NCBI GenBank assembly: GCA_022447525.1
Contig: JAKVBA010000032.1
Location: 1 to 58,171, forward strand
DNA: 58,171 nucleotides
From: Gammaproteobacteria bacterium
GTDB taxonomy: Bacteria; Pseudomonadota; Gammaproteobacteria; Arenicellales; Arenicellaceae
Reading direction: 5' to 3'
The translations under genes were made by a program, and so were the position numbers. Below, in pieces: positions 21,266 to 48,551 of the stretch (position 1 is its first letter; every line of letters starts with the position of its first letter). The notes beneath the pieces were generated by a model. It was given only the letters and a program-made list of their open reading frames with translations. It did not search any database and was not told where the DNA came from.

Positions 21266-21970
21266 ATGAAAGAAACGATTATGTTGAACCCCAGCGATTA
21301 CGTGGGTGTTTCATTTTGGATCATCTCGGCTGCAATGGTGGCAGCAACCTTCTTTTTCTGGGTCGAGCGCGACCGCGCAGAAGGCAAATGGAAAACGTCG
21401 CTCACGGTAGCCGCTATGGTGACGGGTATCGCAGCCATCCATTACTTCTACATGCGCGAAGTCTGGGTCGTGACTGCGGCGAGCCCCACTGTCTTTAGAT
21501 ACGTGGATTGGTTGCTAACCGTGCCTCTGCAAATAGTAGAGTTTTATCTAATTCTGGCTGCTATCGCAGTTGTGAGCACTGCGCTATTTTGGCGACTGTT
21601 AATCGCATCTCTCGTGATGTTGATCTTTGGATATTTCGGCGAAGTTGGTGCAATGGCGGTATGGCCAGCCTTCATCATCGGGATGATCGGATGGATTTAC
21701 ATCATTTACGAAATTTTCGTTGGCGAAGCTAGCAAGATTAACGCCTCGTCAGGCACGGTGGCGAGTAAGAAAGCATTTAATGCACTTCGGTTAATCGTTA
21801 CTGTTGGATGGGCAATATACCCAATCGGCTATGTGCTTGGATATTCGGGAGCAGGAAGCTCTGATTTCTTAAACATCGTCTACAACTTAGCCGACTTTGT
21901 AAACAAAATAGCGTTTGGTGTCGTCATTTGGGCGGCAGCGACAAGCTCTGACGCTGGAGAACAAGCTTAA
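21266..21970 (+). CDS. Proteorhodopsin, blue-tuned, proton pump type
   Basis: This seven-helix retinal protein uses light to export protons. The ATG at 21266 has GGAG six bases upstream, giving 234 residues; an upstream in-frame TTG at 21254 is unlikely. Helix C reads RYVDWLLTVPLQIVEF. By alignment with green proteorhodopsin, Asp81 is the D97 proton acceptor, Thr85 is T101 and Glu92 is the E108 donor (DTE motif: proton pump). Gln89 is position 105, the blue-tuning residue. Helix G holds the retinal lysine Lys214 in ADFVNKIAFG. His59 (AIHYFYM) matches H75. It is the first gene of a retinal operon and is separated from crtE by a GC-rich hairpin. Confidence 0.98.
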   Translation: MKETIMLNPSDYVGVSFWIISAAMVAATFFFWVERDRAEGKWKTSLTVAAMVTGIAAIHYFYMREVWVVTAASPTVFRYVDWLLTVPLQIVEFYLILAAIAVVSTALFWRLLIASLVMLIFGYFGEVGAMAVWPAFIIGMIGWIYIIYEIFVGEASKINASSGTVASKKAFNALRLIVTVGWAIYPIGYVLGYSGAGSSDFLNIVYNLADFVNKIAFGVVIWAAATSSDAGEQA

Positions 21971-21992
21971 GTCTTGAAATAGAGCTACAAGT

Positions 21993-22016
21993 CATCCCCG
22001 GCAAGAGCCGGGGATG
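21993..22016 (+). repeat. GC-rich perfect hairpin between proteorhodopsin and crtE, REP-like
   Basis: A 10-bp perfect stem (CATCCCCGGC / GCCGGGGATG) with an AAGA loop lies 22 bases after the rhodopsin stop. No T-run follows, so it is not a standard terminator. It looks like a REP-type palindrome or an mRNA-stabilising or attenuating element that could raise rhodopsin mRNA above the downstream carotenoid genes. Confidence 0.7.
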
Positions 22017-22065
22017 GCAATCCACCTGAAATTCAACAACTGCCGTTGGGCATAACGAGAACAAT

Positions 22066-23064
22066 ATGAGCGGCAATACCGAAGGAATTAGAAAAAATTT
22101 ACATGAACGCGTCATCAAAAAAATAATCGATGTCGCAGTCATAAATGCCGGCGCTTTAGAGTTGCCATTGCGGCACCACTTCCAAGCACCAGGCAAGGGT
22201 TCTAGGAGCCAACTAATAAAAACTATACAAGGAGAGATTACCAACGAAGAATTCTTAACCACGGTGTGTGCCGTGTGTGAGTGCATCCACGAAGCATCAT
22301 TAGTACACGATGATTTGCAAGACCGAGATGAGGTTCGAAGATCAAACCCTACTGTTTGGAAGAAATTTGGAGACGACGCGGCGATTTTACTCGGCGATCA
22401 TTTGATAGTTTGTGCTTCGACCATACTTTTGAGTAGCCATCTACCAGATCAAGCTAAACTGATGATACAGGGTTTTATGAATGAAGCTGTCAGTAAAGCC
22501 ACGAACGGACAGTTTACCCAACTCGGGCTCGAAATAGGCAATTCGAACGTAGCCCATTTTTACCAAGAATCGGCCGCCAATAAGACCGGCGCTTTTTTTG
22601 CTTTCACCATGAAAAGTGCTTATGTATTGAAAAGTTTGTTACGGAGTCCAGCCGACCACCCTATCTCAAACGAGCTACCCGCCGCAATTAGGCAAGACCT
22701 GAAGGCGATAGAATTAGCTGGCCAAAACCTAGGAATTGGATACCAGATTTACAACGACTGCAAAAATCTCACCAACGCGAAGACTTTTTTCGCTACCAGA
22801 GACTGGCAGCAACAGATAGTAACAGCTCCGTTAATTATACTGAGCAAAATGGTAGATGAACCGACCAAAATACCACTCAATGTTGGTATAGCCGAGAGGG
22901 TTTTGAATCAATGCAAAGAGTGGCAAAGCAAGGCTTACGCAGACGCCGAGCTCATACTTCAAAATGTCGACCCATCCATCTTGGAAACCGTCAAGCAATT
23001 CGGTATTCGATTTAGAATTCGTACTCGAGCTGACAGCGCCGAAAACCTGAGTGCAATTCTATGA
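22066..23064 (+). CDS. crtE: Geranylgeranyl diphosphate synthase (polyprenyl synthetase family)
   Basis: This 332-residue enzyme makes GGPP from IPP and allylic diphosphates for carotenoid synthesis. The first aspartate-rich motif is intact (LVHDDLQDRDEVRR). NGQFTQL matches the usual GQ motif, and KTGAFFAFTM matches the KT motif. The second Asp-rich motif reads YNDCKN, with Asn in place of two expected Asp residues, which is unusual and may alter metal binding. crtI overlaps its end by four bases (ATGA), so the genes are translationally coupled. Identity is strongly supported by its place at the head of crtI-crtB-crtY-blh-idi. Confidence 0.92.
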   Translation: MSGNTEGIRKNLHERVIKKIIDVAVINAGALELPLRHHFQAPGKGSRSQLIKTIQGEITNEEFLTTVCAVCECIHEASLVHDDLQDRDEVRRSNPTVWKKFGDDAAILLGDHLIVCASTILLSSHLPDQAKLMIQGFMNEAVSKATNGQFTQLGLEIGNSNVAHFYQESAANKTGAFFAFTMKSAYVLKSLLRSPADHPISNELPAAIRQDLKAIELAGQNLGIGYQIYNDCKNLTNAKTFFATRDWQQQIVTAPLIILSKMVDEPTKIPLNVGIAERVLNQCKEWQSKAYADAELILQNVDPSILETVKQFGIRFRIRTRADSAENLSAIL

Positions 23065-24578
23065 ATAAAGCGATAGTAATTGGCGCTGGTTTCGGAGGCA
23101 TAGCATCGGCTTTACGTTTGCGTGCAAAGGGGTATTCCGTACAAATTATCGATAAATGCGAAAGATTGGGTGGTCGCGCTCAAGTTTTTGAGCGAGAAGG
23201 CTACAAATTCGACGCAGGGCCAACAGTTATTACTGCCCCATTTTTATTTAACGAGCTATTCGAATTGTTCGACAAAAGCAGGGAGGACTATGTTGAATTC
23301 AAAGCTGTTAACCCCTGGTACCAGTTCTATTTTGCCGATGGTACGAGATTTAACTATGGTGGATCAATTGAAAATACGTTAAACGAGATTGCGAAATTCA
23401 ATCCAGAAGATCAAAAAGGGTATCTAGATCTGGTGAAAAAATCTCAAGAGATTTTCGATGTTGGATTTACCCAGTTATCTGACAAGCCGTTTCATTCTGT
23501 TTGGTCAATGCTTCGACAAATACCTGCATTGTTAAAATTGAGAAGCGATAGGACGGTATGGCAGCTAGTAAGCCGACACATAAGCAATGAAAAACTACGT
23601 CAAGCCTTTTCAGTGCAACCGCTACTAGTGGGCGGCAACCCATTTAACACCACAAGCATCTACAACTTAATTCATTTCCTTGAGAGAAAATGGGGCATCC
23701 ACTTTGCTATGGGTGGCACTGGTGCTCTGGTTGATGCCCTCGGCAAACTAATGACGGAAGTGGGTATAGAAATAAAACTCGGCACCGAAGTGAGGCAATT
23801 GGTGGTAGAGGGTAAGCAGATCACCAAAGCCGTATTAGCGGACAACTCGGAAGTAGAGGCAGATATATTTATCTCAAATGCGGACCCTTTGCACCTATAC
23901 CGAAACATGCTGAGCTCACGCTCTTCAAACTTGCTAGCAAAACTCAAAACCAAGCGAGCAAAGCTATCGATGGGTCTGTTTGTTCTGTATTTTGGCACCA
24001 CCAAAAAATACGCAGACGTGGAGCACCACACCATTTGGTTAGGCAAAAGATACAAAGCCCTGCTAAGAGATATTTTTCAGGGTGACAGCCTTCCAGATGA
24101 TTTTTCTTTATACGTACATCGTCCGACGGCAACGGACCCAAGTTTCGCGCCCGATGGACATGATTCTTTCTACGTCTTGGCACCAGTGCCAAACTTGAAG
24201 GCCAACATCGATTGGCGTGCTGAAGGCCCGGTGCTGATGAAAAGAATCATCGATGCTCTCGAAAGAACAATACTGCCCGATTTAAAAAAACATATTGTCC
24301 ACGAATTTTATATGAATCCAGAGGACTTTCAGCGTGAATACCTTAGTGAAGCTGGAGCAGGGTTCTCAATTGCTCCATTGTTCAGCCAATCCGCCTGGTT
24401 TCGATTTCACAATCGAGGCGAGGGGCCAAGTAACTTGTATGTCAGTGGCGCCGGCACCCATCCCGGTGCTGGATTGCCCGGCGTAATAAGTTCCGCGAAG
24501 GTCGTTGATCGATTGGTCCCAAGCCCAATTAGGCAGGTTGAGACAACGCAACCTAGGGAGGTTGAAGTTGGAGTATGA
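23061..24578 (+). CDS. crtI: Phytoene desaturase
   Basis: CrtI desaturates phytoene to lycopene, bound to the membrane with FAD. The 505-residue protein opens with the dinucleotide fold AIVIGAGFGGIASALRLRA and continues LGGRAQVFEREGYKFDAGPTV. It has the QPLLVGGNPFNTTSIY segment and ends with the family signature GAGTHPGAGLPGVISSAKV. The length is typical. It starts inside the stop of crtE (ATGA overlap), and its end overlaps the crtB start. Confidence 0.97.
   Translation: MNKAIVIGAGFGGIASALRLRAKGYSVQIIDKCERLGGRAQVFEREGYKFDAGPTVITAPFLFNELFELFDKSREDYVEFKAVNPWYQFYFADGTRFNYGGSIENTLNEIAKFNPEDQKGYLDLVKKSQEIFDVGFTQLSDKPFHSVWSMLRQIPALLKLRSDRTVWQLVSRHISNEKLRQAFSVQPLLVGGNPFNTTSIYNLIHFLERKWGIHFAMGGTGALVDALGKLMTEVGIEIKLGTEVRQLVVEGKQITKAVLADNSEVEADIFISNADPLHLYRNMLSSRSSNLLAKLKTKRAKLSMGLFVLYFGTTKKYADVEHHTIWLGKRYKALLRDIFQGDSLPDDFSLYVHRPTATDPSFAPDGHDSFYVLAPVPNLKANIDWRAEGPVLMKRIIDALERTILPDLKKHIVHEFYMNPEDFQREYLSEAGAGFSIAPLFSQSAWFRFHNRGEGPSNLYVSGAGTHPGAGLPGVISSAKVVDRLVPSPIRQVETTQPREVEVGV
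24555..24561 (+). promoter_or_regulatory. Ribosome binding site of crtB
   Basis: AGGGAGG, near-perfect to the anti-Shine-Dalgarno, lies six bases before the TTG at 24568. It lies within crtI and decides the crtB start. Confidence 0.75.
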
Positions 24579-25482
24579 CATTCACTCATACAGCGCACTC
24601 GAGGTGTTGGAGAAACACGGCAAGACGTTCGCCTTTGCTGGGAAACTGCTTGACAGAAAATCACTGGATTCCTGCGCGAGGCTCTACCAGTTCTGTCGAT
24701 ATGCAGATGATTTGGTAGACGATGCAAAAGATAAAGCAGAGGCAAAATCGAAACTAAATTTACTGTCACAAGAACTCAAAGCTGGCTCGAGCAGCGACGT
24801 GGTTATACAAGATTTTATAGATCTGAGCGTAGAATTTAATTTAGATCCTCGGGTAACAGACGAGTTACTCACGGGCTTATCGGGTGATCTAGAGCAAGTG
24901 CGGATACAAACTATCGATGATCTATTAACTTATTGCTACCGCGTTGCGGGAACGGTCGGATTGCATATGTGTTCGATTTTTTCAGTTCAGGAACCCACGG
25001 CAAGAGCTCACGCTATTGATTTGGGTATAGCGATGCAACTGACCAACATATGCAGGGACGTTACGGAAGATGCCGAGGGAGATCGACGTTATTTGCCCTC
25101 AGCACTCGTAGGTCAACTTGAACCGTCTCAAATTCTGGAGCCTCGCGAGATAGATGCACAATCAATAAAGCGTAGTGTCTCAGAACTTCTTGACCTGGCA
25201 GATCAATATTACCGCTCTGGTTTCGCTGGGTTGGCATTTTTACCACCGAGATTCAGAACCACGATTGCCGTGGCGGCTCGTTTGTACCAAGAAATTGGCT
25301 GTGTCATAAAAAAGAGGGGCTACGATGTTTGGCTTGGAAGGGCTTACGTTGACTTCCCAAACAAAGTCCTCAAAGGGCTGATAGCGGCTCTGTCATTATT
25401 ACACCGACGGGCCTTATCGGAAAAACATAATCCAAAATTGCACCGGGGCCTGGGTGGCTTGCCTTGGGTGTCAATCAATTAA
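24568..25482 (+). CDS. crtB: Phytoene synthase
   Basis: CrtB condenses two GGPP into phytoene. I place the start at the TTG at 24568, because AGGGAGG at 24555-24561 lies six bases upstream and the protein then begins EYDIHSYSALEVL just before conserved sequence; the ORF runs back to 24505 inside crtI. The 304-residue product has both aspartate motifs (YADDLVDDAKD and CRDVTEDAEGDRRYLP) and AIDLGIAMQLTNI. It overlaps crtI by 11 bases and ends one base before the crtY start. Confidence 0.95.
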   Translation: MEYDIHSYSALEVLEKHGKTFAFAGKLLDRKSLDSCARLYQFCRYADDLVDDAKDKAEAKSKLNLLSQELKAGSSSDVVIQDFIDLSVEFNLDPRVTDELLTGLSGDLEQVRIQTIDDLLTYCYRVAGTVGLHMCSIFSVQEPTARAHAIDLGIAMQLTNICRDVTEDAEGDRRYLPSALVGQLEPSQILEPREIDAQSIKRSVSELLDLADQYYRSGFAGLAFLPPRFRTTIAVAARLYQEIGCVIKKRGYDVWLGRAYVDFPNKVLKGLIAALSLLHRRALSEKHNPKLHRGLGGLPWVSIN

Positions 25483-25483
25483 C

Positions 25484-26677
25484 ATGAGCACAAGAGAGTC
25501 CATCGACCTATTGGTTATTGGCGCAGGTTGCGCAGGGCTGTCCCTAGCCACCCAACTGGCCAAACTTGAACGCATGGGATCAAAAGTCCCTTCAACCATT
25601 CTGGTTGATCGGCGCGCGGAATACGTCGATGATCGCACTTGGTGTTTTTGGGAGCCACCGACATCGAAAAATCAAGGCTCAAATCAAATGTGGGACAGTT
25701 GGGAGTTCAGCGACGGCAACAACCGTGTTATTCATTGCGGTAACTCAGATTGGGCTTATCATTACACAAACGCACTCGATTTTTACCAAACATGCATCCA
25801 GAGTATCGAGCAAAGTAAGTCTCAGTCCTTACATCTGAACCAGAGTGTCAAGAAAATCAAAAAGACGTCTCAAGGCTATCTGGTGAGCACTACAAATCGT
25901 ACGTACATCGCTAAAAATATCGTTGATACAAGGCCTTGGTCGGCTGCGCCGGATCGAGATGTCTTACTCAACCAGATATTTTATGGCCTAGTAATTGATA
26001 CCAGTGAGCTCAACATGGCGGTACCAAACAGGGCTATGCTAATGACCGATATGTCAGTTGATGAATATGGTTTTAAATTTAACTATATTTTGCCGTTATC
26101 AAAGAATCGGATTCTGATCGAGGTAACACGCTTCACCGCTCACGATTTAGCACCAGAAAGCCTGGCGGCGAACTGTTACGCTTTATCCAGAAATATGACT
26201 AAAAACAAAGTGCCGTGCATTCTCAGAGTAGAGTCCGGCAATATTCCAATGGGTTTAGGCAGTATTTCAAAGAGTTCGCAAAACTACGTTTACTCTGGAG
26301 TAACGGCTGGGGCGGCTAGAGCATCGACAGGATATGCTTTTCAGCGTATCGGTAAATGGGCGAAACATTGTGCGGTTCACTTGGTAGAGCATGGCAATCC
26401 TTGTTCAGCACCAAAAGACCCAACGCTTATACATTGGATGGATACCGTATTCTTGCAAACGATCAAAAGAAACCCAAAGGTCGCTCCAAAACTATTTATG
26501 TCACTGGCGGAAAACTTAGACGCGTCTAAATTAGTAAGATTCCTGACAGACAAGCCTACTTATCGAGATTTATTCTCGGTGATGACCGCATTACCAGTGA
26601 AGTCTTTACTTAAAAGCGCAATCATAGACTTGAGCCGTAGGGCACAAAAGAAGTACCAAAGAGTAAGGGAGGCCTAG
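25484..26677 (+). CDS. crtY: Lycopene beta-cyclase
   Basis: CrtY cyclises both ends of lycopene to beta-carotene. The ATG at 25484 follows the crtB stop by one base; the ORF continues upstream only because crtB is read in another frame. The 397 residues begin with a dinucleotide fold (LLVIGAGCAGLSLATQLAKL) and contain DRTWCFWEP, VDEYGFKFNYILPLS and GVTAGAARASTGYAFQRI. All are typical of proteobacterial CrtY-type cyclases. Directly after its stop comes the GTG start of blh. Confidence 0.95.
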   Translation: MSTRESIDLLVIGAGCAGLSLATQLAKLERMGSKVPSTILVDRRAEYVDDRTWCFWEPPTSKNQGSNQMWDSWEFSDGNNRVIHCGNSDWAYHYTNALDFYQTCIQSIEQSKSQSLHLNQSVKKIKKTSQGYLVSTTNRTYIAKNIVDTRPWSAAPDRDVLLNQIFYGLVIDTSELNMAVPNRAMLMTDMSVDEYGFKFNYILPLSKNRILIEVTRFTAHDLAPESLAANCYALSRNMTKNKVPCILRVESGNIPMGLGSISKSSQNYVYSGVTAGAARASTGYAFQRIGKWAKHCAVHLVEHGNPCSAPKDPTLIHWMDTVFLQTIKRNPKVAPKLFMSLAENLDASKLVRFLTDKPTYRDLFSVMTALPVKSLLKSAIIDLSRRAQKKYQRVREA

Positions 26678-40409: not shown

Positions 40410-41255
40410 ATGAATACTATTATCAAAGCCAAAGGTGTAACCAAGTTATATGGCGGTTTCGCTGCACTAAATAACGTAGACCTAGATATACCCGCTGGAC
40501 GTATCGTTGGTTTAATTGGCCCCAACGGCGCAGGTAAATCAACACTTCTTAGGTGCATGATGGGAATGACAAACCATCACGGGGAACTTAGCGTCATGAG
40601 CATGAAGCCCGCCGAGAGTCGTCGTCAACTGATGCAAAAAGTTGCCTACATTGCCGATACTGCGGTCCTTCCGAAATGGATAAGAGTCGCACAACTTCTT
40701 GAGTACGCTGAGGGCGTGCACCCCAACTTCGATCGTAAACGGGCTGAGAGTTTTCTTGCCAAAACTCAGATAAAACTAAAAAGTAAAGTGAGCACGCTGT
40801 CTAAAGGTATGACCACTCAAGTTCACCTTGCTATTGCTATATCTATTGACGCCAAATTGCTGGTTTTAGATGAACCCACATTGGGCTTAGATATTTTGTA
40901 TCGCAAACAATTCTACGAACAACTTCTCAATGATTTCTTTGATGAACAGCGCACTATAATTATCACAACACACCAAGTCGAAGAGGTGGAGGCGCTGCTA
41001 AGTGACGTAGTCTTTATCCAACAAGGAAAAATTGTTTTGGATATGTCCATGGAGGAACTATCTGAACGATTTTATCAAGTTGAGGTTTCTAACGATCGAA
41101 TTAGCGAAGCATCAAAGCTTAATCCAATCTATCGAACCAAGACGCTTGGTGGCGAGAGAATAATAATCGAGGGAAGTCACAACAGCGATTTACCAAGCAT
41201 AGGCACCGTAACCACACCCAGTATTGCCGACTTGTTTATGGCCAAAATGGCTTAA
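40410..41255 (+). CDS. ABC transporter ATP-binding protein
   Basis: This 281-residue ATPase has Walker A GPNGAGKST (37-45), an unusual signature LSKGM (130-134) as in YtrB-like ATPases, Walker B LLVLDEPTLGLD (150-161) and H-loop ITTHQVEE. The C-terminal 75 residues form a small extra domain. It pairs with the permease that starts 13 bases after its stop. In YtrA-controlled operons such transporters are linked to envelope stress or antibiotic response, but the substrate is unknown. Confidence 0.92.
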   Translation: MNTIIKAKGVTKLYGGFAALNNVDLDIPAGRIVGLIGPNGAGKSTLLRCMMGMTNHHGELSVMSMKPAESRRQLMQKVAYIADTAVLPKWIRVAQLLEYAEGVHPNFDRKRAESFLAKTQIKLKSKVSTLSKGMTTQVHLAIAISIDAKLLVLDEPTLGLDILYRKQFYEQLLNDFFDEQRTIIITTHQVEEVEALLSDVVFIQQGKIVLDMSMEELSERFYQVEVSNDRISEASKLNPIYRTKTLGGERIIIEGSHNSDLPSIGTVTTPSIADLFMAKMA

Positions 41256-41268
41256 GGAGCAGCGACTG

Positions 41269-42255
41269 ATGATCAATTTTACTACTCTTATAATGAACTT
41301 GAAGCGCGAGTTTTGGGAGAACCATCGCATACTAATTACTTTACCGTTAATCATAAGCGCCCTGATGATACTCGCCGCTATCGGTACGGTAATTTACTCC
41401 AATCATAGCAACGCAATTACGGATAGCGACAGCGCAAGCACGATCTCTAAAAACGTTACAAATGAGATAACAAGCGGAGTTTCGACTGATCCTTCCGTGT
41501 TGGATCTCAATAAAAAGTCCAATACAGATAAAAATACGCAACTAGAGAGTGACGTTACTGCATCAGGCAACCCAAGTGACGAAGTAACCGAGAACAACTT
41601 TTGGTATATAGGGATCTACTTTGCTTTCTGCTGGTTCATCGCGCTTTTCTACTTATTGAATAGCCTGCATAGCGATCGCAGTGATAGAAGCATACTGTTT
41701 TGGAAGTCGATGCCAGTGTCTGATTGGGAGTCGATTTTTAGCAAGTATTTATTCGCCAGTCTTGCATTTGCATTTTTTGCAATGATCATTGCTTGGGCTA
41801 ACTCTATTGTTCTGTATGGTCTAGTAGCATCTGGTATTAACCCAGATTTAGTAGATCCAAACGCAGAGGAAATGGCTTTCGACTTTGCACAAATGTTTGT
41901 CTGGCCTCTTATAGTAATTGGCATTACATGGCTTTGGAGCAGCATATGGTTTAGTTGGGCTTTGTTTTGTAGCGCCCGTGCAAAACGGTTTCCAGTATTG
42001 TTGTTCATTCTCGTACCCACGCTATATGGCTTCGTTGAAAAGCTTATAACTGGACAAAACCCATTGATGAGCTTTGTGATCGCACACTCGCCATGGAAAC
42101 TACTATCGTATATCTCGAAAGAACCGCGCCTTGGAGACTTTTTTCAATATCTCTTCATCGACAATGCCGGTGGCCTTGTTGCCTCAATAATCATCTCAAC
42201 CGGACTGCTTTATGCAACGACCTGGCATCGAGCAAATCGCATTGAATGCGAATAA
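41269..42255 (+). CDS. ABC transporter permease with a Ser/Asp/Asn-rich extracytoplasmic insert
   Basis: This 328-residue protein starts at the ATG at 41269, with AAGGAG nine bases upstream; the ORF extends back into the ATPase gene. The first membrane helix is at about 20-44. It is followed by a hydrophilic insert of roughly 65 residues rich in Ser, Thr, Asn and Asp (about 46-108, NAITDSDSASTIS, DLNKKSNTDKN), then five or more helices including NFWYIGIYFAFCWFIALFY. It is the membrane partner of the upstream ATPase. The insert would lie outside the membrane between TM1 and TM2 and could bind substrate or a partner. Confidence 0.88.
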   Translation: MINFTTLIMNLKREFWENHRILITLPLIISALMILAAIGTVIYSNHSNAITDSDSASTISKNVTNEITSGVSTDPSVLDLNKKSNTDKNTQLESDVTASGNPSDEVTENNFWYIGIYFAFCWFIALFYLLNSLHSDRSDRSILFWKSMPVSDWESIFSKYLFASLAFAFFAMIIAWANSIVLYGLVASGINPDLVDPNAEEMAFDFAQMFVWPLIVIGITWLWSSIWFSWALFCSARAKRFPVLLFILVPTLYGFVEKLITGQNPLMSFVIAHSPWKLLSYISKEPRLGDFFQYLFIDNAGGLVASIIISTGLLYATTWHRANRIECE

Positions 42256-42282
42256 CCTCAATAGCAATTTACGGAGCAAACG

Positions 42283-42999
42283 ATGACGTCACATTCAATT
42301 CTTTTGACTTTCCATATTTTTATGGGTGCGCTGTCAATTGTCAGCGGGTTTGTCGCAATTGGGAGCCGAAAAGGACAAGCAAAACACCTAAAAGCTGGTA
42401 AAACATTTCTGATCGCAATGTTGGCGATGTGCTCAAGCGGCGCCGCTTTATCAATTTGGGGTGGGATTACACTCTCTCTGTTAGTCAGCGTGTTTACTAT
42501 CTATTTGGTTGCTACGGCTTGGAGAGCGTCAACCCGTTTTACCCAAACAGTAACCTGGGGCGATGCCTTTGGATTGGTGCTGGTGTTGAGTCTATCGATT
42601 GGCTTTTTCTACCACGGACACCTTGCCTCGATAAGCCCCTCAGGCACAATCGATAACATTCCCATTGGTCCGATCCCTTATTATGTCTTCGGCTTTATTT
42701 CGTTGTTCGCTGGCTTACGTGATTTGATCTTCATTTTGAATATCAAACGCACCAGCAAACAGGCTCGTCCGGCGCATATTTGGCGCATCAGTTTGTCTCT
42801 TTTTATCGCCACGTCGTCGTTCTTTACTGGCAATCCGCAGGTATTTCCTAAATGGTTTAATGATTCATTCTTGTCATCATTGCCAGAGCAATTTGTTTTA
42901 CTCGCAATGGTCTACTACCTGTTTACGCATTTTTCCGGTTTTTCTGTATCCAAACTTATCAATCGGAAAAGAGTATTAGTTAAAATCGAAAGCTTTTAA
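42283..42999 (+). CDS. DUF2306-like membrane protein
   Basis: This 238-residue protein with about seven membrane segments has an N-terminal ILLTFHIFMGALSIVSGFVAI with His11 (HIFMGALS), KGQAKHLKAGKTF, a central TVTWGDAFGLVLVLSLSIGF and a C-terminal AHIWRISLSLFIAT. The HIxxG and H-R-xxG pattern is that of the DUF2306 family, whose function is unknown. ACGGAG six bases upstream fixes the start. It is the fourth gene of the ytrA operon, and its stop overlaps the next start (TAATG). Confidence 0.75.
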   Translation: MTSHSILLTFHIFMGALSIVSGFVAIGSRKGQAKHLKAGKTFLIAMLAMCSSGAALSIWGGITLSLLVSVFTIYLVATAWRASTRFTQTVTWGDAFGLVLVLSLSIGFFYHGHLASISPSGTIDNIPIGPIPYYVFGFISLFAGLRDLIFILNIKRTSKQARPAHIWRISLSLFIATSSFFTGNPQVFPKWFNDSFLSSLPEQFVLLAMVYYLFTHFSGFSVSKLINRKRVLVKIESF

Positions 43000-43871
43000 T
43001 GAACTCCAAAAACATCACTTCAGATTGGCAAAAGGCTTTAGAATTATTTGGCTCAAACCAAACTCTAAAGAATCAGTTCCTTACGCCTATCGTGCATTCA
43101 GAGCTCAACGCTCGGGAGATTGTTAATGGGTTTATCGAGGTTGAAAGGTTACTTAAAGACCTAAAAAACCAGGGAGAAAAAATCAGCTTACGAACACTTT
43201 CTGCTCACTGTTTTCGTGCTGATTCGAAGTTTTTAGATAGGCGCCGGAAATTCTTAGAGCACGCCTTCCCGATAGCAAAGGATACTGTTGAACCGCGAGT
43301 TATCATGCTATCGGCTTACATTCCCGAAAAGTTACAGAGAGCAATTTTTATTGAGAATTTCGATAGCTTCAGAGCCGCCGTTAAAGCCATTGAAGCAGGC
43401 GATTTTTCCAAATCGACCGCGGTAATCTACAGTGCTGGTTACCGTGGCTCTGCAGCTCAAATCAGGCAACTTAATACCTGTCAGTTCGTAACCATCAACC
43501 ATACCCCAATCGAGCACTACGATGAATTCGTAAACTGGTGGTTTTCATCGGACCAATCGATTGCCGTTTATTTCTGGGGTGACTTTGATTTTGATGGTAT
43601 GAGCATCATCAAGTCGCTACGTGAAAAATTCCATAACGTGACCGCTCTAAAACCACTTTATGAGGCCGTATTAGCGTATCATCGAGACGGCGTCTCACAT
43701 AGAGACCTAAGCCCCAAGAAAAATTCGCAGACAGACCCAATTAGGACAGGTTGTTCCTATACTGACACAGTGCTACTGCCACTTCTTCGAGAATCCGGGC
43801 AATTTACCGATCAAGAGGTGCTTGGTGGTAAAGAACTATACCAAGTGATTAATACAGCCTTTACCAAATAA
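42999..43871 (+). CDS. Orphan JetD-like protein (DUF2220, TOPRIM-like)
   Basis: This 290-residue protein resembles the C-terminal half of JetD, the DNA-cleaving subunit of Wadjet anti-plasmid systems. Visible features are FRADSKFLD (72-80, like the GDSK segment), the TOPRIM Glu119 in IFIENFDSF, a GYRGSAAQIRQL loop, and the DxD-like YFWGDFDFDGMSII with Asp195 and Asp197. The N-terminal arm is only about 100 residues, so the protein is shorter than JetD (about 380-400). No jetA, jetB or jetC is near. It is translationally coupled to the DUF2306 gene. It may be a nuclease; its substrate is unknown. Confidence 0.72.
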   Translation: MNSKNITSDWQKALELFGSNQTLKNQFLTPIVHSELNAREIVNGFIEVERLLKDLKNQGEKISLRTLSAHCFRADSKFLDRRRKFLEHAFPIAKDTVEPRVIMLSAYIPEKLQRAIFIENFDSFRAAVKAIEAGDFSKSTAVIYSAGYRGSAAQIRQLNTCQFVTINHTPIEHYDEFVNWWFSSDQSIAVYFWGDFDFDGMSIIKSLREKFHNVTALKPLYEAVLAYHRDGVSHRDLSPKKNSQTDPIRTGCSYTDTVLLPLLRESGQFTDQEVLGGKELYQVINTAFTK

Positions 43872-48013: not shown

Positions 48014-48045
48014 TTGACACATTTGCACAAATATGCAAATATAAG
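48014..48045 (+). promoter_or_regulatory. Promoter and ArsR operator upstream of arsR
   Basis: TTGACA (48014-48019) is a -35. A palindrome ATTTGCA-N6-TGCAAAT (48021-48040) sits in the spacer, and AAATAT (48037) or TATAAG (48040) serves as -10. Placement within the promoter fits autorepression released by metal. Confidence 0.65.
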
Positions 48046-48048
48046 TTT

Positions 48049-48345
48049 ATGAGCGATATCCAAGTTCAAGACACAGCTGATTTTCTCAAAGCCCTTGGAG
48101 AATTTAATCGACTATCTTTGGTGTACAGACTTTGCGATTGTCAGTCACCACAAAACGCGATGTGCCTTTGCGATTGCTGCAGCGTAGACGCATCAGTGGT
48201 ATCAAGGCATTTAAAAACACTGGTCCAAGCTGGTGTGTTAAAGCAAGAGAAAAAAGGCAGAGAGCGCACCTACAGCCTAGACCGTTCTCGCGTTGCTAAA
48301 GAACTCCGTGAACTCGCTGATCGAATTGAAACTAATATTGAATAA
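48049..48345 (+). CDS. ArsR-family metal-responsive repressor
   Basis: This 98-residue ArsR/SmtB-type winged-helix repressor has the core FLKALGEFNRLSLVYRLCDC, the recognition helix VDASVVSRHLKTLVQAGVL and wing KGRERTYSLDR. Six cysteines cluster just before and inside the recognition region (LCDCQ, CLCDCCSVD), more than in ordinary ArsR proteins, so a soft metal such as Cd, Cu, Zn or As(III) is the likely inducer. The ATG at 48049 follows a palindromic operator in its promoter. Twenty-two bases downstream begins a cysteine-rich small gene. Confidence 0.92.
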   Translation: MSDIQVQDTADFLKALGEFNRLSLVYRLCDCQSPQNAMCLCDCCSVDASVVSRHLKTLVQAGVLKQEKKGRERTYSLDRSRVAKELRELADRIETNIE

Positions 48346-48367
48346 CCGTTTGTTGGAGACCGTAAAA

Positions 48368-48460
48368 ATGAGCGAGCAAGAATGTAAATGTGATTGTAAA
48401 AAAGCTGACTGTTGCAAAGAAAAAACATGTAAATGCTGTGAGAAAAGCTGCTGTTGCTAA
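48368..48460 (+). CDS. Metallothionein-like cysteine-rich micropeptide
   Basis: This 30-residue peptide has 11 cysteines (positions 6, 8, 10, 15, 16, 21, 23, 24, 28, 29 and 30) and 8 lysines or so, beginning MSEQECKCDCKKADCC and ending in CCC before TAA. GGAG lies nine bases upstream of the ATG. The CxC, CC and CCC clusters and absence of hydrophobic residues are those of a metallothionein, although it is shorter than known bacterial SmtA/BmtA (about 50-60 residues). It is directly behind a cysteine-rich ArsR repressor and before a terminator, so it is probably induced with it to bind a soft metal. It was too short for routine gene calling. Confidence 0.85.
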   Translation: MSEQECKCDCKKADCCKEKTCKCCEKSCCC

Positions 48461-48504
48461 ACAGCAAAATAGCTAAAACACAGAATATCCGGGGGGAAGA
48501 AATG

Positions 48505-48539
48505 GGGCAGATATTAATTTAAATATCGCCCTCATTTTT
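48505..48539 (+). terminator. Terminator of the arsR-metallothionein operon
   Basis: A stem GGGC(A)GATATT / AATATCGCCC with one bulged A and an AATTTA loop is followed by TCATTTTT. Confidence 0.7.
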
Positions 48540-48551
48540 CAATCCACTAGA

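Follow-up and report, generated by a model that had tools for sequence, protein, structure and literature searches.

A short gene for an 11-cysteine, probably metallothionein-like peptide behind an ArsR-family repressor gene in a marine-type gammaproteobacterium

A repressor gene followed by a very short gene

The window analysed here, that is, the whole stretch of 58,171 nucleotides (positions 1 to 58,171 of contig JAKVBA010000032.1, assembly GCA_022447525.1, Arenicellaceae), carries a gene for a predicted ArsR/SmtB-family repressor that is followed, after a gap of 22 bases, by an open reading frame of 30 codons (ATG at 48368, TAA at 48458-48460; Table 1). The product of this frame, MSEQECKCDCKKADCCKEKTCKCCEKSCCC, consists of 30 residues, 11 of them Cys (37%) and 7 Lys, and contains no His, Phe, Tyr, Trp, Pro or Gly; its computed mass and pI are 3.4 kDa and 7.4, respectively. 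The initial annotation had described the ArsR gene, the gap, a GGAG nine bases before the ATG, the 30-codon frame with 11 Cys, the TAA and a terminator-like hairpin, and this description, when checked against the sequence, was correct to the base. The hairpin is absent from the list produced by a simple terminator scan; the segment 48445-48545, compared with shuffled sequence, folds about 4.5 standard deviations better. The initial annotation had called the peptide gene too short for standard gene calling; at 93 nt, however, it lies slightly above, and not below, the minimum of 90 nt that a common gene caller applies, so that such a gene would be easily missed, rather than excluded, by gene calling.

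Table 1. Features of the ArsR-peptide unit in the window
Feature	Position	Strand	Evidence
Candidate -35 element TTGACA	48014..48019	+	sequence; identical in G421
Candidate operator of ArsR (inverted repeat ATTTGC-N8-GCAAAT), overlaps the promoter	48021..48040	+	unique in the window, conserved in place in G421
ArsR/SmtB-family metal-sensing repressor (predicted), 98 aa	48049..48345	+	NCBIfam NF033788, Pfam HTH_5; CadC alignment; model fold
Shine-Dalgarno GGAG of the peptide gene	48355..48358	+	sequence, 9 bases to ATG; TGGAGA before the start in 6 of 7 family members
Peptide gene, metallothionein-like, 30 aa, 11 Cys	48368..48460	+	invariant Cys pattern in 7 genomes, Cys codons differ at position 3 only
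Terminator-like hairpin and T run, end of the unit	48504..48539	+	sequence; fold of 48445-48545, z = -4.49

The repressor scores 56.2 bits against the ArsR/SmtB metalloregulator model NF033788 of NCBIfam (cut-off 55) and reaches the cut-off of 22 for Pfam HTH_5 (PF01022). Among solved proteins, Lmo1102 and CadC are closest to it by sequence, and its MCLCD aligns with LCVCD of CadC, i.e. with the alpha3N metal motif. The six Cys are C29, C31, C39, C41, C43 and C44, the last four within the motif MCLCDCC; in the predicted structure (mean pLDDT 77, with only two sequences in the underlying alignment), C39, C41, C43 and C44 are located on the second helix (residues 37-44), whereas C29 and C31 come just after the first long helix, and the fold matches are CzrA, SmtB, ArsR and CadC. 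Judging by sequence and model fold, the protein is a winged helix-turn-helix regulator of the ArsR/SmtB family with a putative CxC metal motif of the alpha3N type. It shares with CadC and R773 ArsR the ArsR fold and the CxC(D) motif at the alpha3N site but has the extra C29, C31 and C43 and no N-terminal Cys, and its neighbour is a gene for a peptide of metal-binding type rather than one for an efflux pump or a reductase.

The block from TTTGACA to the ATG of arsR is almost unchanged between the window and G421, a genome of the same class but another order (see below), whereas the DNA further upstream has diverged. The inverted repeat within this block is the sole match in the window even with one mismatch allowed, about 0.5 matches being expected by chance with one mismatch; among 264 loci, it is found only in the copies of the ArsR-peptide unit, namely those of the window and G421. 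Its conservation is consistent with a metal-released operator. A promoter scan did not list the candidate promoter, whose -10 element is weak, being either AAATAT at 17 bases or one of the A/T-rich stretches further on. The arsR gene has no ribosome site (window 48014-48049), an arrangement that is conserved in G421. With a weak -10 element and a promoter close enough to place the start of transcription on the ATG or right beside it, the message of arsR may have almost no leader.

Conservation of the peptide and selection on its cysteines

No open reading frame of the window other than that of the peptide combines 7 or more Cys with a Cys content of 20% or higher. A simulation of 180 windows, with Markov models of orders 1, 2 and 5, yielded a single frame with 9 or more Cys and a content of 20% or higher; for the status of the gene, conservation in other genomes is more decisive than such simulations. 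A protein search of 369 genomes of the class with the window ArsR produced one close relative, in G421, which is 76% identical. Behind it, in the same arrangement, lies a 30-codon frame, MTTQKCKCDCKNSKCCQDKTCKCCNSKCCC, with all 11 Cys in register with those of the window peptide. Since G421 was found by the ArsR query, with the peptide unused, it provides independent support for the pairing of the two genes. Two other weak matches within the class, in G099 and G102, turned out, on inspection, not to be Cys-rich genes.

A loose scan of genome contigs for the Cys pattern yielded a third relative, in a Methylophilaceae genome (L053); among the matches listed, nearly all others were poly-Cys readings of simple repeats. 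With a profile made of the three sequences, the peptide was found in 5 of 187 Methylophilaceae genomes, and these five relatives are 31-36 residues long, every sequence being distinct. The spacing CxCxCx4CCx4CxCCx3CCC is invariant in all seven genomes (the window, G421 and the five Methylophilaceae), as is the Lys-Thr ahead of the sixth Cys. Conservation of the Cys pattern among relatives had been proposed in the initial annotation as a check on the gene, and the outcome is in its favor.

The codons of the seven genes point in the same direction. Both TGT and TGC are used in 9 of the 11 Cys columns, and there is not a single column with a change at positions 1-2; in the other 18 columns, 11, 10 and 15 are variable at codon positions 1, 2 and 3, respectively. 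Under simulated neutral change at the divergence between the window and G421, the probability that all 11 Cys would be kept is about 4e-5. The invariant spacing, the exclusively synonymous change of the Cys codons and the TGGAGA ribosome site, kept in six of the seven genes, indicate selection for the translated Cys pattern. Thus, the peptide gene is real and under protein-level selection on its cysteines; the earlier proposal of a genuine short gene behind ArsR holds, with the pair and the operator recurring in G421. In one member of this conserved family of small genes, G876 (L248:1483-1593), the start site has shifted: ATA stands in place of the usual ATG, and the frame now opens at a new ATG that lies four codons further upstream and lacks the GGAGA seen as a rule.

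Relation to known metallothioneins and genomic distribution

In composition, the peptide qualifies as a metallothionein: small, Cys-rich, with CC and CxC motifs and no aromatic residue. It has no match in Pfam up to E = 1, two of its relatives have no match to PF02069 (bacterial metallothionein, SmtA/BmtA type) up to E = 10, and no NCBIfam model matches it; the peptide alignment, used as a profile against solved structures, hit a single entry, without significance (E = 7). His is absent from the window peptide and from all six relatives. A literature search, thin on subscription papers, found no description of the family. The peptide likely works as a metallothionein but, by profile and lack of His, stands outside the described SmtA/BmtA family; its own family is small, conserved and unnamed, and the members most likely sequester toxic metals, as metallothioneins of roughly half the bacterial norm in size.

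SmtB/ArsR repressors, which come off the DNA upon binding metal, control metallothionein genes, and smtA and smtB are divergently placed in cyanobacteria (PMC8790569; PMC7387436). Like the SmtA/SmtB system of Synechococcus, the unit of the window places a small Cys-rich protein beside an ArsR/SmtB-family repressor, with an operator (in the window, a candidate) that overlaps the promoter; unlike smtA, which is divergent from smtB, the peptide gene lies on the same strand, downstream of the repressor, and encodes a His-free product of 30 residues, 11 of them Cys. SmtA has about 56 residues, 9 Cys, His ligands and a zinc-finger element, and the few known bacterial metallothioneins are about 50-80 residues long. 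The zinc finger fold of the SmtA type has been described, as have the M4Cys11 domains of animal metallothioneins (PMC10612145). The animal alpha domain (M4Cys11) resembles the window peptide in its 11 Cys in CC and CxC motifs and in the absence of aromatic residues and His, but its Cys are spaced differently and it makes up half of a two-domain protein, whereas the peptide is free-standing. The two are also alike in size, the animal M4Cys11 domain being about 30 residues long; given the different spacing, the likeness appears to be one of analogy, not homology. Very short, single-cluster metallothioneins are also found in fungi, namely the 25-26-residue copper proteins of the Neurospora type, which are comparable to the peptide in shortness and in the single cluster proposed for it but are eukaryotic and have seven Cys in CxC pairs, whereas the 11 Cys of the peptide include CC and CCC.

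The family is rare and patchy. The peptide was not found in the other 17 genomes of the genus, elsewhere in the order sample (109 genomes), elsewhere in the order of G421 (63 genomes) or in a phylum sample of 398 genomes, and among relatives of the genus, family and order the closest ArsR is at most 39% identical, ArsR genes of this subfamily being rare themselves. A search with the ArsR found none on viral contigs and only distant ArsRs (below 40% identity) on plasmids; searches for the peptide and for the ArsR-peptide unit on plasmids, and for the unit in phages, found none. Such a distribution suggests horizontal transfer or repeated loss. In two congeners, the SBF transporter gene (75% identical) and the DUF4920 gene are immediate neighbours, and the stretch compared contains neither ArsR nor the peptide, whereas in the window the two are separated by PhoD, DUF1304, ArsR and the peptide, and DUF4920 is flipped; from this gene order, the unit seems to belong to a block that was gained or rearranged here. 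Among the genes beside it in the window, there is no known metal exporter or metal-modifying enzyme.

The five Methylophilaceae copies have no adjoining ArsR, and a search of the L053 genome for this ArsR type, run without a positive control, found none. Two of the five adjoin smpB, with a small SEC-C protein encoded downstream; in L053, a tmRNA-like stretch (read by eye) follows smpB near the peptide gene. The small proteins (L053:379-564, minus strand; L249:1753-1905, plus strand), encoded after the 11-Cys peptide gene and near smpB, combine the SEC-C zinc motif with a Cys-rich N-terminal part, CCNDTTCCPSK, and are possibly functional partners of the peptide in these two Methylophilaceae. 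The expectation that overlooked relatives would form a family behind ArsR genes has thus come true in part: a family without a Pfam or NCBIfam model does exist, but it is scarce, and the ArsR link is present in two of its seven copies only.

A possible metal-responsive unit and its alternatives

The order of the genes, the selection on the cysteines and the fact that G421 conserves both proteins as well as the operator are direct observations. Building on these, we consider it quite probable that the two genes form an autoregulated detoxification unit of a repressor and a single-cluster metallothionein-like peptide. The ArsR protein, bound to the inverted repeat over its own promoter, would keep both genes off; upon binding of a thiophilic metal ion to its CxC-type cysteines, it would leave the DNA, and one short transcript would then yield more repressor along with the His-free peptide. 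The latter would wrap metal ions into a single thiolate cluster; its 11 Cys would suffice for four divalent ions, the number in the animal M4Cys11 domain. When the metal level falls, repression would return. In other bacteria, the same family would be made from ArsR-free loci. Co-transcription, repression, metal binding, the identity of the metal and induction are what we infer for the unit; as five of the seven relatives lack ArsR, the context points to metal control for only two. The missing match to the bacterial metallothionein model of Pfam and the lack of a neighbouring known metal exporter or metal-modifying enzyme also weigh against this reading.

A broader scenario can be envisaged, in which these peptides, as stand-alone 11-Cys metallothioneins without His and of roughly half the known bacterial size, make up a family of their own that arose independently of SmtA, each holding one M4Cys11-like (or three-arsenite) cluster, and were captured in some lineages as an ArsR-controlled module moving between distant gammaproteobacteria; our belief in it is evenly divided. 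As a metallothionein, the peptide would be the smallest natural bacterial one known to us (30 residues, with an 11-Cys pattern invariant in seven genomes), a single animal-like cluster of M4Cys11 size could stand alone in bacteria, and short Cys-rich genes would be among those being missed by annotation. A peptide of 30 residues is, moreover, easy to synthesise and test.

Which metal would be handled by the proposed unit is a separate question, and a metalloid variant of the same mechanism, with the repressor as an As(III) sensor and the peptide as an arsenite-specific buffer binding As(III) by sets of three Cys, is a tentative option that we hold to be possible rather than probable. The spacing C39-x-C41-x2-C44 equals that of the As(III) site of R773 ArsR (Cys32-x-Cys34-x2-Cys37), and there is no counterpart of the N-terminal cysteines by which the cadmium site of CadC is completed; hence, the Cys layout leans to As(III), being compatible with Cd(II) or Pb(II), too. 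In a congener (G001, L003:1375-2292), a 39% identical ArsR gene directly precedes a VOC-domain gene that resembles, by eye, the ArsI/CadI family. However, a four-thiolate site could be built with the extra C29, C31 and C43, the unit has no arsenic gene next to it, and As(III) is not separable from Cd(II) or Pb(II) by sequence alone.

A role of the peptide as a metallochaperone or cluster donor, e.g. in Cu(I) or Fe-S delivery, instead of a storage or detoxification sink, would suit the copies near smpB/ssrA in two Methylophilaceae, which have no metal-resistance context; it is improbable, as 11 Cys in 30 residues exceed those of known single-ion chaperones and ArsR control in two genomes suggests a response to excess. 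Slighter still is the case for a Cys- or metal-sensing leader peptide (attenuator), in which ribosomes that pause on the Cys codons, above all on the terminal CCC, would regulate a downstream gene. Polycysteine leader peptides are known in mycobacteria, and both the terminal Cys-Cys-Cys and the hairpin with its T run past the stop would fit; but a leader needs Cys codons near its end, not all 11 at fixed spacing, and no co-oriented gene directly follows the peptide gene in the window (where DUF4920 is convergent) or in G421, G884 and G880 (all convergent), a co-oriented SEC-C gene being directly downstream only in G864 and G886. That the frame is no gene but a Cys-rich ORF due to chance or an extension of ArsR by read-through, as its shortness and the small number of genomes might suggest, can hardly be maintained, given the invariant spacing, the synonymous-only Cys codon change in seven genomes, the conserved ribosome site and the frame's own start codon past the ArsR stop.

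Two other gene sets of the window deserve mention. At 40410-43868, genes for an ABC transporter ATPase and permease are followed by one for an unmatched 238-aa protein and then by one whose product carries the C-terminal domain of JetD (Wadjet family; E = 2.5e-9 in Pfam), an unusual set of partners. At 21266-26674, a rhodopsin-family gene is followed by genes for a polyprenyl synthetase, an amine-oxidase-type (phytoene-desaturase-like) protein and a lycopene cyclase, the set expected of a proteorhodopsin/retinal cluster.
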